A stretch of 64,000 nt of DNA, from assembly GCA_028283765.1 (NCBI GenBank), contig JAPWJY010000008.1:496001-560000 (forward strand), written 5' to 3'. A program made the translations under genes and the position numbers. Positions 2,697-6,485 of the stretch are shown here, piece by piece. Below the pieces are notes generated by a model, which worked only from the letters and a program-made list of their open reading frames with translations, had not been told where the DNA came from and did no database searches. Numbering within the stretch: the stretch's first letter is position 1; each line of letters opens with the position of its first letter. Source of the stretch: Parvibaculaceae bacterium (GTDB lineage Bacteria; Pseudomonadota; Alphaproteobacteria; Parvibaculales; Parvibaculaceae).

Positions 2697-2762
2697 TCAC
2701 GCCGGCGATCAGGCGTGGGCTTCCAGAAAAGATTTCCCCGTGTTTCCCGAAAGGGCCCCGAC

Positions 2763-3716
2763 ATGTTGAGTCGTACCGCCGATAATCTCTACTGGGTCGC
2801 CCGCAATATGGAGCGGATCGAAAATCTGGCTCGCATCATCCGGGTGGCGGACCGTCTGTCGCTGATGCCGGTGGTGCCGGCGGGCGATGACAGTCTGGGC
2901 GACGAATGGCAGTCCGCCATCATCGTTTCGGGCTCCTCGGAAGGCTTCTACGCCAAATATGAGGAAGCGACGCCGGAGGCGGTGATTTCCTATATCGCTT
3001 TCGACCCGGAAAATCCGTCGAGCATCCGTTCCTGCATCGAGACGGCGCGGCGCAATGCAAGGGCCATCCGCACGGCGTTGACCACGGAGATGTGGGATTG
3101 CCTCAACACCACATGGCTTGAACTGCCCAAATGGAACGAGTCCCGGGTGCGCGGCAGCGGGCTTCACCGCTTCCTCGACTGGGTCAAGGACCGGGCCTTG
3201 CTGTTCTTCGGCAGCACGCAGGCGACCATGCTGCGCCGGGACAGCCTCTATTTCGCCCAGCTCGGCACCTTCATCGAACGGGGCGACAACACGGCGCGCA
3301 TTCTGGACGTGAAATATCACATTCTGCTGCCCGAACATGCGCCGGTTGGCAGCGCGGTCGATTATTACCAGTGGTCGTCGATCCTGCGGGCCGTCTCGGG
3401 TTTCCGGAGCTATTACGTTTTATACAAGGATGGCATCAAGCCATGGCGGGTTGCCGAGTTCCTGACCATTGAGGAACAAATGCCCCGGTCGCTCGTTAAC
3501 TGCATGTCGCGCATCAACGAAAATCTTTTGCTGCTGGGCGATCAGTATGGCCAGCGGCATGAATGTCATCGCACCGCCGGCCGGCTGCAATCGCGGCTCC
3601 GCTTCAGCCGCATCGACGACATTTTCAGGCAGGGCCTGCACGAATTCCTGACCGAATATATCGAACAGAACAATCAGCTCGGTCAGGAAATCAGCAAAAG
3701 CTATCTGCTTGGATAG
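2763..3716 (+). CDS. Alpha-E domain protein
   Basis: A 317-residue, mostly helical protein of the alpha-E family (formerly DUF403). It begins with the family hallmark MLSRTADNLYWVARNMERIENLAR and has the conserved FIERGDNTARILDVKYH in the middle. No enzymatic activity is established; it always occurs next to the circularly permuted ATP-grasp, sometimes fused to it, so it is probably a partner subunit. The ATG at 2763 matches the family N-terminus and has GAAAGG upstream; a GTG at 2715 would add residues not typical of the family. It lies 66 bp after the ATP-grasp gene, same strand. Confidence 0.88.
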   Translation: MLSRTADNLYWVARNMERIENLARIIRVADRLSLMPVVPAGDDSLGDEWQSAIIVSGSSEGFYAKYEEATPEAVISYIAFDPENPSSIRSCIETARRNARAIRTALTTEMWDCLNTTWLELPKWNESRVRGSGLHRFLDWVKDRALLFFGSTQATMLRRDSLYFAQLGTFIERGDNTARILDVKYHILLPEHAPVGSAVDYYQWSSILRAVSGFRSYYVLYKDGIKPWRVAEFLTIEEQMPRSLVNCMSRINENLLLLGDQYGQRHECHRTAGRLQSRLRFSRIDDIFRQGLHEFLTEYIEQNNQLGQEISKSYLLG

Positions 3717-3738: not shown

Positions 3739-4557
3739 ATGCGCATCGTGATTGACCACCAGACGACCTATCGATATGCAAATCCGGCGCGCTATGCGCT
3801 TTATGCCCTCCATGCCTCTCCCCGCGACATGGGATCGCAACTGGTCATGGAATGGAGCGTGGCCGCTCCGCACGGTTCGACGCTGCGGCGCTCCGACGAT
3901 TCCTATGGCAATATCGTCGATATGCTCTGCATCGATCATCTGCATAGTGAACTTTCATTCCATATTCACGGGGAAGTCGAGACTCGCGACACCAATGGCG
4001 TGGTCAGCGGGCTTGCCGAGCATTTCATGCCCCGCTTCTATCTGCGCGAGACGGCGCTGACCGCATCGACGCCCGGCATCGCCGCTCTTGCCGGGCAGGC
4101 GCGGGCAAGGGCGAACGGCCGGCCGATGGACCTTGTTCATGAGCTGGTCACGTCGGTGCGCTCGGCGGTGGAATTTATTCCCGGCGGCAATGCGCCTGCC
4201 GGACCGGCGGGCGCGGTGCTCTCTTCCGGCGCGGGGGGCGTGCCCGATCTCACCCATCTTTTCATCGCGGGCGCGCGGATGCTGGGCCTCCCGGCGCGCT
4301 ATGTCGCAGGCTACCATTATGAAGGCGGGGATTCCGGGTCGGGCCGCTGCCATGCCTGGGCCGAGGTTCATGTCGGGCATATGGGCTGGCTCGGCATCGA
4401 TCTCGTTTCGGGAACAGGTCCGGGCGAGAGCCACGTCCGTATCGCCTCCGGGCTTGACTATGGGGAGGTTGCCCCGGCAAAAGGGGCGCGTCAGGGCGGT
4501 GCTGAAGCCACTCTCGATGTGCGTCTGAAGATTGAAGCGGGACAAACGCAGCAATAA
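3739..4557 (+). CDS. Transglutaminase-like protein, catalytic Cys apparently absent
   Basis: A 272-residue protein with the bacterial transglutaminase-like N-terminal domain (MRIVIDHQTTYRYANPARYALYALHASPR) and a C-terminal transglutaminase/cysteine-protease-like core. The usual core motif is G-V-C-x-D-[FL]-[AT]-H; here the corresponding residues, about 164-171, read GGVPDLTH, with Val/Pro instead of Cys. The later HAWAEV (His) and GWLGID (Asp) segments remain. The length of the segment is unchanged, so a simple indel does not explain the loss. It may be a pseudo-enzyme that binds a peptide, or a Cys just before the conserved His (RCHAW) may substitute. It starts 22 bp after the alpha-E gene. 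Assignment to the family is sure; activity is doubtful. Confidence 0.85.
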   Translation: MRIVIDHQTTYRYANPARYALYALHASPRDMGSQLVMEWSVAAPHGSTLRRSDDSYGNIVDMLCIDHLHSELSFHIHGEVETRDTNGVVSGLAEHFMPRFYLRETALTASTPGIAALAGQARARANGRPMDLVHELVTSVRSAVEFIPGGNAPAGPAGAVLSSGAGGVPDLTHLFIAGARMLGLPARYVAGYHYEGGDSGSGRCHAWAEVHVGHMGWLGIDLVSGTGPGESHVRIASGLDYGEVAPAKGARQGGAEATLDVRLKIEAGQTQQ

Positions 4558-4614: not shown

Positions 4615-5358
4615 ATGACCTATTGCGTTGCCATGCGTTTGAAGACCGGCCTCGTCATGCTGGCCGATACCCGCACCAATGCAGGCGTCGACAATATCGC
4701 CACCTTCCGCAAGCTCACCGTGGTCGAAACCCCCGGCGAGCGGGTCATCGGTGTCATGACGGCGGGCAATCTGGCGGTCTCGCAGGCTGTGCTCAGCCTG
4801 CTGCTGGAGCAGGGCGTGTCGGTCCGGGATGGCGAGCCGCCGCAGACGCTCTATACGGTCCCCACCATGGTCCGCGCTGCCCAGCTTGTGGGGCAGGCGA
4901 TCCGCGAGGTCTATCAGGTGGATGGGCCGTCGCTGGAGGCTCAGGCCAGCGATTTCAACGTTTCGATCCTGCTCGGCGGCCAGATCGGTTCGGGGAAGAT
5001 GAGGCTGTTCCAGCTTTATGCGGCGGGCAATTTCATCGAGGCGACGGAGGACACCTGCTTCCTCCAGATCGGCGAGCATAAATATGGCAAGCCGATCCTC
5101 GACCGGGCGGCGAGCTATGACACCGGGGTGGGCGATGCGCTGAAGCTCGCGCTCATTTCCATGGATTCGACCATCCGCTCCAATCTCTCCGTCGGCCTGC
5201 CGGTAGATCTTATGGTCTACAGGCGCGATGCGCTCAAGGTTGCGCTTCAGAAGCGGGTCCGGGAGGATGATCCCTATTTCAAGGGGTTGCGTCAGGCATG
5301 GTCCGATGCGTTGACCCGGGCCTATCTGGCCATCGAGGGGCCGGACTGGGATTTTTAG
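4615..5358 (+). CDS. Anbu proteasome-type protease
   Basis: A 247-residue Ntn-hydrolase of the Anbu (BPH) family, bacterial relatives of proteasome beta subunits and HslV. The start at 4615 gives MTYCVAMRLKTGLVMLADTR; after Met removal Thr1 would be the nucleophile, with Asp17 in ADTRTN and the Lys in TFRKL completing the usual site. An upstream GTG at 4588 would bury Thr1 and is rejected. Anbu forms helical or ring-like assemblies in other bacteria. It is the fourth gene of the ATP-grasp/alpha-E/transglutaminase cassette, a widely conserved arrangement thought to make or remove a peptide tag, although the substrate is unknown. Confidence 0.93.
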   Translation: MTYCVAMRLKTGLVMLADTRTNAGVDNIATFRKLTVVETPGERVIGVMTAGNLAVSQAVLSLLLEQGVSVRDGEPPQTLYTVPTMVRAAQLVGQAIREVYQVDGPSLEAQASDFNVSILLGGQIGSGKMRLFQLYAAGNFIEATEDTCFLQIGEHKYGKPILDRAASYDTGVGDALKLALISMDSTIRSNLSVGLPVDLMVYRRDALKVALQKRVREDDPYFKGLRQAWSDALTRAYLAIEGPDWDF

Positions 5359-5361
5359 CCG

Positions 5362-6485
5362 ATGAACCAAAACCTGCTGCTCCCTGCCTCCGGCCGCGCC
5401 GGAGCGTGGCTGCGCGACCAGGCATTGCCGTTCTGGCTTGACCGGGGGCTCGATCCTCTTGGCATGGCCTGGGAGGAAATGTCGTTCGATGGCGTCCCGC
5501 GCGAGACCGGCTATCGCCGCACGCTCGTCCAGTTCCGGCAGGTCTATGTATTCGCCCATGCCGCCCAGGCCGGCTGGTGCCCGCCCGGGAGAGCGGCCAG
5601 CCTGTTCTTCGCCACCTGCGCGCGGGCGCGGCATCGGGATGGCGGCTTCGTGCACAGGCTCTCGCCCGCCGGGGATAGTCTCGATGACACCCGCGACGCC
5701 TATGATCAGGCTTTCGCGCTTCTGGCGGCGGGCTGGATTTTCAGGCTGACCGGGGACAGCCGCGCGCTCGATATTGCCCATGAGACCCTCGATTTCATGC
5801 AGCGCGAGATGGCGCATCCCGAGGGTGGTTTCGTCGAGGCGCTGCCGCCCCGGACCCCGCGCCGGCAGAACCCGCACATGCATCTTTTCGAGGCGCTTCT
5901 GGTCCTGTTCGAGGCGAGCCGGGACGTTGCTTTTATCGACGCCGCACGTCGGATTCTCTCCCTTTTTGCAGAGGCAAATTCGTCACCCCCGGCGGGGCCC
6001 TGCTTGAGTATTTCGGCGATGACTGGGCCCCGCTCGAAGCGCGCGTCGAGCCCGGCCATCATTTCGAATGGGTCTGGCTGCTCCATGAATTCGAGCGCCT
6101 GACCGGCGAGGATCAGGGACAAGTCATTGCTTCGCTTATGGATTTCGGCCTGAAGGGCGTGGATGCCGAAGGGCTGGCGATCGACGAAATGGATGCCGGA
6201 GGCCATTGGCTCGTGCGCTCGCGCAAGCTCTGGGCCCAGACCGAGATGCTGAAGGCCCTTATCGTGCTTGCGGAGCGCGGCGCCAAGGCTTCGGAATGGC
6301 GGATTCCTGCGCTTGTGGACGCCATTTTCGAGCGCTTCATGGTGCCCGGCGAGGCGCCGTTATGGTTCGAGGCCATCGCCGAAGACGGACAGCCCCTGCG
6401 GACCCGGATGCCGGCCACGACGCTTTATCATCTGATGCTCGGTTTCATGGAATTGCGCCGCTTTGCCGCCGCCTCTCGGCAATGA
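5362..6485 (+). pseudogene. AGE-family sugar epimerase/isomerase, frameshifted
   Basis: An N-acylglucosamine 2-epimerase (AGE) family enzyme, normally an (alpha/alpha)6 barrel that interconverts sugars such as mannose/glucose or N-acetylhexosamines. The frame from 5362 carries FVHRLSPAG, DTRDAYDQAFALLA and RRQNPHMHLFEALL. Near 5968-5980 similarity jumps to another frame, which continues as FVTPGGALLEYFGDDWAP and HHFEWVWLLHEFERL to 6485. A one-base deletion around 5974-5978 (or a two-base insertion) explains it. Repaired length is about 373 residues, normal for the family. It begins 3 bp after the Anbu stop, so it is co-transcribed. The change may be a real mutation or a sequence error. Confidence 0.82.

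Follow-up and report, generated by a model that had tools for sequence, protein, structure and literature searches.

The available texts of two studies of the proteasome-like protein Anbu describe its operon, one giving the gene order CP-ATP-grasp, Alpha-E, transglutaminase and Anbu (PMC6376114) and the other the identical gene set (PMC5666114), and both report in those texts no activity of Anbu on standard proteasome substrates or peptides. The Anbu operon has so far withstood functional assignment. Its transglutaminase-like proteins belong to COG1305. Inactive relatives of such proteins have been described elsewhere. In the accessible part of the source, RloB of Pseudomonas aeruginosa is an inactive transglutaminase fused to seven transmembrane helices, whose operon also encodes an ATP-grasp protein and a peptidase, and genetic evidence for its function is given (PMC12239564); non-catalytic roles are ascribed, in the portion of the text available, to EPB42 (erythrocyte protein 4.2), FBXO21 and other inactive papain/transglutaminase-fold proteins (PMC10318531). 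Our literature search, in which Iyer et al. 2009 was covered through the papers citing it, returned no paper describing transglutaminases of Anbu operons that lack the Cys, or the Gln tail reported below; a paper on S. meliloti nodulation mentions only a COG2308 regulatory region.

The window, by which we mean the whole 64,000-nucleotide stretch that was analysed (contig JAPWJY010000008.1 of a Parvibaculaceae bacterium, positions 496,001 to 560,000), carries an Anbu operon with its four genes on the same strand and in the expected order, the start codons of genes 1 and 2 having been picked in this analysis:

1263 to 2696, + strand: CP-ATP-grasp ligase, circularly permuted, operon gene 1 (Pfam CP_ATPgrasp_2, E 7.4e-167)
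2760 to 3716, + strand: Alpha-E protein, operon gene 2 (Pfam Alpha-E, E 4.1e-98)
3739 to 4557, + strand: Cys-less transglutaminase-like protein, 272 aa, operon gene 3 (Pfam Bact_transglu_N, 1.3e-15; Transglut_core, 6.3e-13)
4615 to 5358, + strand: Anbu, a proteasome-beta-like Ntn hydrolase, operon gene 4 (Pfam Proteasome, E 6.6e-6; Thr1, Asp17 and Lys32 present)

None of the four proteins matched a model in NCBIfam. The 272-aa translation of 3739-4557 (+) contains ...PAGAVLSSGAGGVPDLTHLFIAGARMLGL...; Pfam places Bact_transglu_N at residues 5-81 and Transglut_core at residues 129-221, and both domains score above the gathering cutoffs, at 58.3 bits (PF08379) and 49.4 bits (PF01841) against 27 and 23. 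A search of genome contigs for related loci retrieved a congener alone, one separate MAG (G001, Hyphomicrobiales bacterium isolate bin_243; n=1 compared), whose protein is 87% identical overall to that of the window. On the 3' side of Anbu, a frameshift divides the window copy of an N-acylglucosamine 2-epimerase-like gene into two frames (5362-6102, 6138-6485); the congener (L192 from 1840) has this gene as a single open frame.

The first-pass annotation had noticed that GGVPDLTH replaces the Cys motif of the third protein, with the His and Asp motifs kept, and a 50-sequence alignment confirmed this:

4240 to 4242, + strand: GTG as codon 168, putting Val where the catalytic Cys would be, as placed by the alignment, the codons and a helix start in the structural model
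4351 to 4353, + strand: His205, formerly of the triad, kept in an invariant alignment column
4399 to 4401, + strand: Asp221, formerly of the triad, kept in an invariant alignment column

The motif region, 4216-4275, corresponds exactly to residues 160-179. Val168 occupies the catalytic Cys column, where the alignment placed no other Cys, and the invariant His205 and Asp221 lie in HAWAEV and WLGID. All 47 Cys-bearing rows (100%) have Val167, Cys168 and Gln169, and aligned to this V-C-Q the window reads G-V-P and the congener G-V-S. The window triad is V-H-D in place of the Cys-His-Asp of an enzyme of the bacterial transglutaminase-like family; the readable sister-genus proteins have C-H-D. The codons at the site are GGG GGC GTG CCC GAT in the window and GGG GGG GTG TCC GAT in the congener, and relatives typically have GTY TGY CAG GAY. 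The earlier reading that the spacing is unchanged, without a plain indel, was borne out by an alignment free of gaps on both sides of the Cys column. Since 'GV' is displaced by one codon, loss of the Cys codon together with gain of a Gly codon is possible instead of point substitutions, and the length is identical under either history. Near-invariant residues altered in both congeners include H171L, A203R, F220I and N224S.

An AlphaFold2 model built from the alignment (mean pLDDT 93.6, pTM 0.91; C-terminal end of low confidence, with a mean pLDDT of 47 in the last block) answers the question of which residue takes the nucleophile's place: it is Val168, at the start of helix 168-181, and the available text of PMC10318531 puts the nucleophile of the papain-like fold at such a helix start. 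The best solved Foldseek match was 3isr (E 1.2e-17, TM-score ~0.7, whole length), followed by TgpA and transglutaminases. The fold is thus predicted to be kept, with the nucleophile and its surroundings altered. We also considered a membrane pseudo-transglutaminase of the RloB type and rejected it, as no such Pfam match was found at E 1e-3 and the model is a compact 272-aa alpha/beta structure in which no helix exceeds 15 residues.

Anbu was sought in 40 genomes of the family (27 positive), 387 of the class (124), 397 of the phylum (159) and three more families (13/18, 7/10 and 2/5 positive), each survey having its own E-value limit; the genus-level set comprised 2 genomes and the order-level set 40, and upstream genes were examined at the places retrieved, which for the phylum are a part of the total. 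A transglutaminase lies within 400 bases upstream of 132 of the 252 distinct Anbu sequences. One of the 132 proteins is truncated before the motif; the 131 readable ones comprise 124 with C-H-D and 7 that are Cys-less. What the first-pass annotation missed is that Cys loss is recurrent, that loss of the gene is commoner, and that both accompany a second, complete transglutaminase cluster. All seven Cys-less proteins belong to the window's class, carry V, V, Y, Y, P, P and G at the Cys position, keep His and Asp, and have an open frame. In 23 further operons Alpha-E adjoins Anbu and the transglutaminase gene is absent, which shows that many lineages can do without even a non-catalytic role. On the Anbu tree the Cys-less state needs 6 changes, of which well-supported branches require at least 5, and the gene-less state 10 (at least 6); these counts leave out L100 and L102 (transglutaminase further upstream), L030 (the truncated protein), 92 Anbu rows without a close upstream transglutaminase or Alpha-E (6 of them with a transglutaminase 600-1120 bases away) and 3 Anbu places with too little sequence. 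Cys-less, gene-less and Cys-bearing operons coexist in families f1 (window genus Cys-less, G021 gene-less), f31 (G069 Cys-less; G177, G385, G435 and G436 gene-less) and f78 (G116 Cys-less; six g156 operons gene-less). Anbu Thr1, Asp17 and Lys32 are kept in 7/7 Cys-less operons, and the remaining system therefore looks active.

Several other loci seen in passing may be recorded here. Operons of ATP-grasp, Alpha-E and Anbu without a transglutaminase gene were frequent (L073, L109, L115, L193 and similar). Sinorhizobium medicae pSMED01 has an ATP-grasp gene, Alpha-E and a transglutaminase with GVCQDHAH, with no Anbu match in 9.8 kb, and in Methylobacterium bullatum the operon is complete and the transglutaminase motif is GVCQDLAH. 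The Anbu homologue of L200 (G394:C18) is fragmented over several frames; the listed completeness of its genome is 99%.

Selective constraint on the window gene has moved, the N-terminal domain being tight and the core relaxed:

3739 to 4038, + strand: N-terminal beta domain, residues 1-100, tightest constraint (dN/dS 0.047 vs the congener)
4039 to 4554, + strand: residues 101-272, papain-like core plus tail, under relaxed constraint and accelerated (dN/dS 0.28; 38-47 unique changes vs 7-17 in four sister-genus comparisons)

In the one species pair that could be analysed, the other Cys-less lineages having no Cys-less close relative for pairing, the whole gene showed a dN/dS of 0.183 (bootstrap 0.12-0.272) at a dS of ~0.4, which excludes neutral decay; the bootstrap ranges were 0.009-0.114 for residues 1-100 and 0.173-0.439 for residues 101-272, and Anbu gave 0.071. 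Amino-acid differences between window and congener number 4/100 in the N-domain and 32/172 in the rest (Fisher p 4e-4). The ratio of core to N-domain dN was 5.14 in the window pair (n=1), compared with a median of 0.45 (range 0.14-2.62) in 228 mutually non-independent Cys-bearing sister-genus pairs, in which the core is usually the better conserved half. In relative-rate trios with four sister-genus proteins, the window branch accounted for the 38-47 unique core changes (p 2e-3 to 2e-7), and the same four trios showed no excess change on that branch in the N-domain or in Anbu. Core acceleration in the trios was clear in the window lineage only and weak or absent in others; it reached p 0.04 in one of two trios for L242 and fell short of p 0.05 for L092, L225, L099 and L111. 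The view that the protein is a pseudo-enzyme thus gains support from the nucleophile lost in both congeners, the predicted intact fold and the purifying selection; we hold it to be very probable that this is a selected pseudoenzyme at all, and its sequence suggests that it is inactive.

The protein ends in a Gln-rich tail, which proved to be common among its Anbu-linked relatives:

4543 to 4554, + strand: residues 269-272, QTQQ, the C-terminal Gln tail (126/132 Anbu-linked relatives have Gln among their last three residues)

Gln is the last residue in 99/132 Anbu-linked transglutaminases (readable ends) and makes up 378/1056 of their last-eight residues (36%), compared with 4.3% overall; in other classes at least one Gln is found in the last eight residues of 18/20. 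Tail Gln was absent from non-Anbu transglutaminases (0/7), these being what was left of 11 unlinked rows after removal of L009 and L080, which are actually Anbu-linked, and of L116/L139, which share an identical tail with one Gln and lie over 2 kb upstream of an Anbu. Six of the seven Cys-less proteins keep the tail (QTQQ in the window and congener, TQQQ in L099, QVQS in L092, QAQAQSQS in L225 and FQGQ in L242), and it is absent from L111/L206. Its persistence after Cys loss argues against a mere self-substrate, which would be expected to fade with the Cys. We considered whether the tail might be a mere nucleotide effect near the Anbu start, and the evidence was against this: mean tail Gln was 2.6-3.6 over four bins of distance from Anbu with no fall, tail Gln codons were CAG/CAA 236/142, and such a tail is missing from ATP-grasp (on average 0.08 Gln among the last 8 residues) and from Anbu (0.25), although at long distances from Anbu fewer of the proteins end in Gln. 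For the ligase and for Anbu alike, the tail is a candidate substrate or docking site. Pup uses a C-terminal Gln/Glu in an isopeptide bond, and the C-terminal Gln of 99/132 Anbu-linked proteins bears only a resemblance to this. As a separate observation, Alpha-E adjoining Anbu in gene-less operons shows a slight excess of tail Gln (mean 1.0 vs 0.54), with Gln-containing tails such as QSQSQSVA and GMSQTQSG in some of them.

The window genome also has a second cluster, without an Anbu match (L190; G000:C7:83133-90175), that encodes an 870-aa fusion of ATP-grasp and Alpha-E, one transglutaminase of 337 aa and another of 1152 aa joined to DUF2126 (amidoligase), both transglutaminases having the full C-H-D. 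By score, the close homologues of the 337-aa protein stand well apart from the rest (E <=9.5e-52 vs >=2.4e-34). Among 127 class genomes with a classified operon, a close paralog was present in 6/7 Cys-less, 19/20 gene-less and 21/100 Cys-bearing genomes, or in 25/27 loss genomes vs 21/100 (Fisher 7.7e-12), a count that left out 24 genomes of other classes and the class genomes G173, G253 and G725 and that, the query being the window genome's own protein, distant paralogs may escape. The two loss genomes lacking a close paralog are G296 (Cys-less) and G114 (gene-less). Collapsed to genera the proportions were 13/15 vs 16/55 (p 8e-5), collapsed to families 10/12 vs 12/35 (p 0.006), and inside the window's family, some genomes of which are incomplete, 3/3 vs 0/24. 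Independent pairs on well-supported branches gave means of 4.2 that agree, 0.3 that disagree and 3.5 equal; at a median p of 0.125 in this underpowered test the paralog link is unproven, though its direction agrees. The association suggests a common function or substrate for the two clusters.

Several explanations for the missing nucleophile have to be weighed. We found nothing in favour of a sequencing or annotation artefact, or of a different Cys aligned to the site, and give this negligible credence: the independently assembled congener also has Val at position 168, which ruled out a sequencing error, and loss in two independent assemblies at more than one base from a Cys codon excludes a read error. 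A displaced catalytic Cys was ruled out by the gap-free alignment and by the variability of Cys204, which adjoins His205 and is the sole nearby thiol in the sequence; it is Ser in the congener, so a conserved replacement thiol is absent there. Retention of His205, Asp221, Asp170 and His173 in both congeners is what one would expect if the protein were still an enzyme that combines His/Asp with another nucleophile or water in an altered reaction; we consider this very unlikely, given that the residues replacing Cys in the seven proteins mostly offer no nucleophile, that the neighbouring thiol is not shared by the congener and that the near-invariant Phe220 and Asn224 around Asp221 are altered too. 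The main rival is that the gene is on its way out, the second cluster having made catalysis needless and the Cys-less protein being a jobless transient before deletion. Gene-less operons do outnumber Cys-less ones (23 vs 7 rows) and occur beside them in the same three families, the paralog link is common to both outcomes, and the core of the window protein is relaxed. However, the low dN/dS, overall and above all in the N-domain, at appreciable dS argues against such an exit for the window genus, as do the frames open in 7/7 and the tails kept in 6/7 Cys-less proteins, and we regard it as an unlikely but serious contender.

The reading that we favour, and think fairly probable as a whole statement, is that of a pseudo-transglutaminase with a non-catalytic job whose chemistry became dispensable through the second, Anbu-less cluster. 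The protein would be a member of the Anbu-operon transglutaminase family that folds correctly but lacks the thiol nucleophile, retained in the ATP-grasp/Alpha-E/Anbu system as an adapter, carrier or scaffold. Its job would be carried by the N-terminal beta domain and the flexible Gln-rich C-terminal tail, which may bind ATP-grasp, Alpha-E or Anbu, and the presence in the genome of the fusion protein and two C-H-D transglutaminases could make its own chemistry dispensable, with the latter taking over in trans. The first-pass annotation had likewise proposed binding or scaffolding instead of catalysis; the constraint on the N-domain and the kept Gln tail are consistent with that proposal, although the retained His and Asp may be fold constraints only. 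Counting against a binding role, no specific interaction emerged when operon proteins of Y. bercovieri were used in pull-downs, according to the available text of PMC6376114. The 'peptide-tag cassette' in which the protein had been placed survives as a published hypothesis on the operon and not as a proven function, as far as the same text goes. A further reading, that in Anbu operons the transglutaminase-like protein is first of all a carrier or substrate instead of the enzyme, its Gln tail being extended or modified by ATP-grasp and trimmed by Anbu, with the N-domain for docking, strikes us as improbable; if true, it would explain why the N-domain and tail outlive the Cys, and Anbu's missing substrate would become testable.

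Inactive transglutaminase domains are already known, and it is the recurrent Anbu-operon form that we have not found described. EPB42 and FBXO21 resemble the window protein in having lost catalytic residues, but they are eukaryotic and, in the part of the source available, their context is unrelated; protein 4.2 (7tvz) was a weak structural match only (Foldseek E 2e-2). The putative cysteine protease 3isr of Cytophaga hutchinsonii shares the whole-length fold and a sequence match at E 1.9e-5, but has Cys in the aligned motif, AGVCRDFAH. RloB, as far as its source is available, shares with the window an inactive transglutaminase domain retained in an operon with ATP-grasp and a peptidase; it differs in being a membrane protein, in its RimK-related ATP-grasp and in having an aspartic peptidase in place of Anbu. 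With the transglutaminases of other Anbu operons the window protein has in common the gene order, domains, fold, His and Asp, and C-terminal Gln tail, whereas the Cys and both its neighbours are replaced, the core is relaxed and the N-domain is tight; natural Cys-less versions of this kind show which parts of the transglutaminase the system needs and which it can spare.
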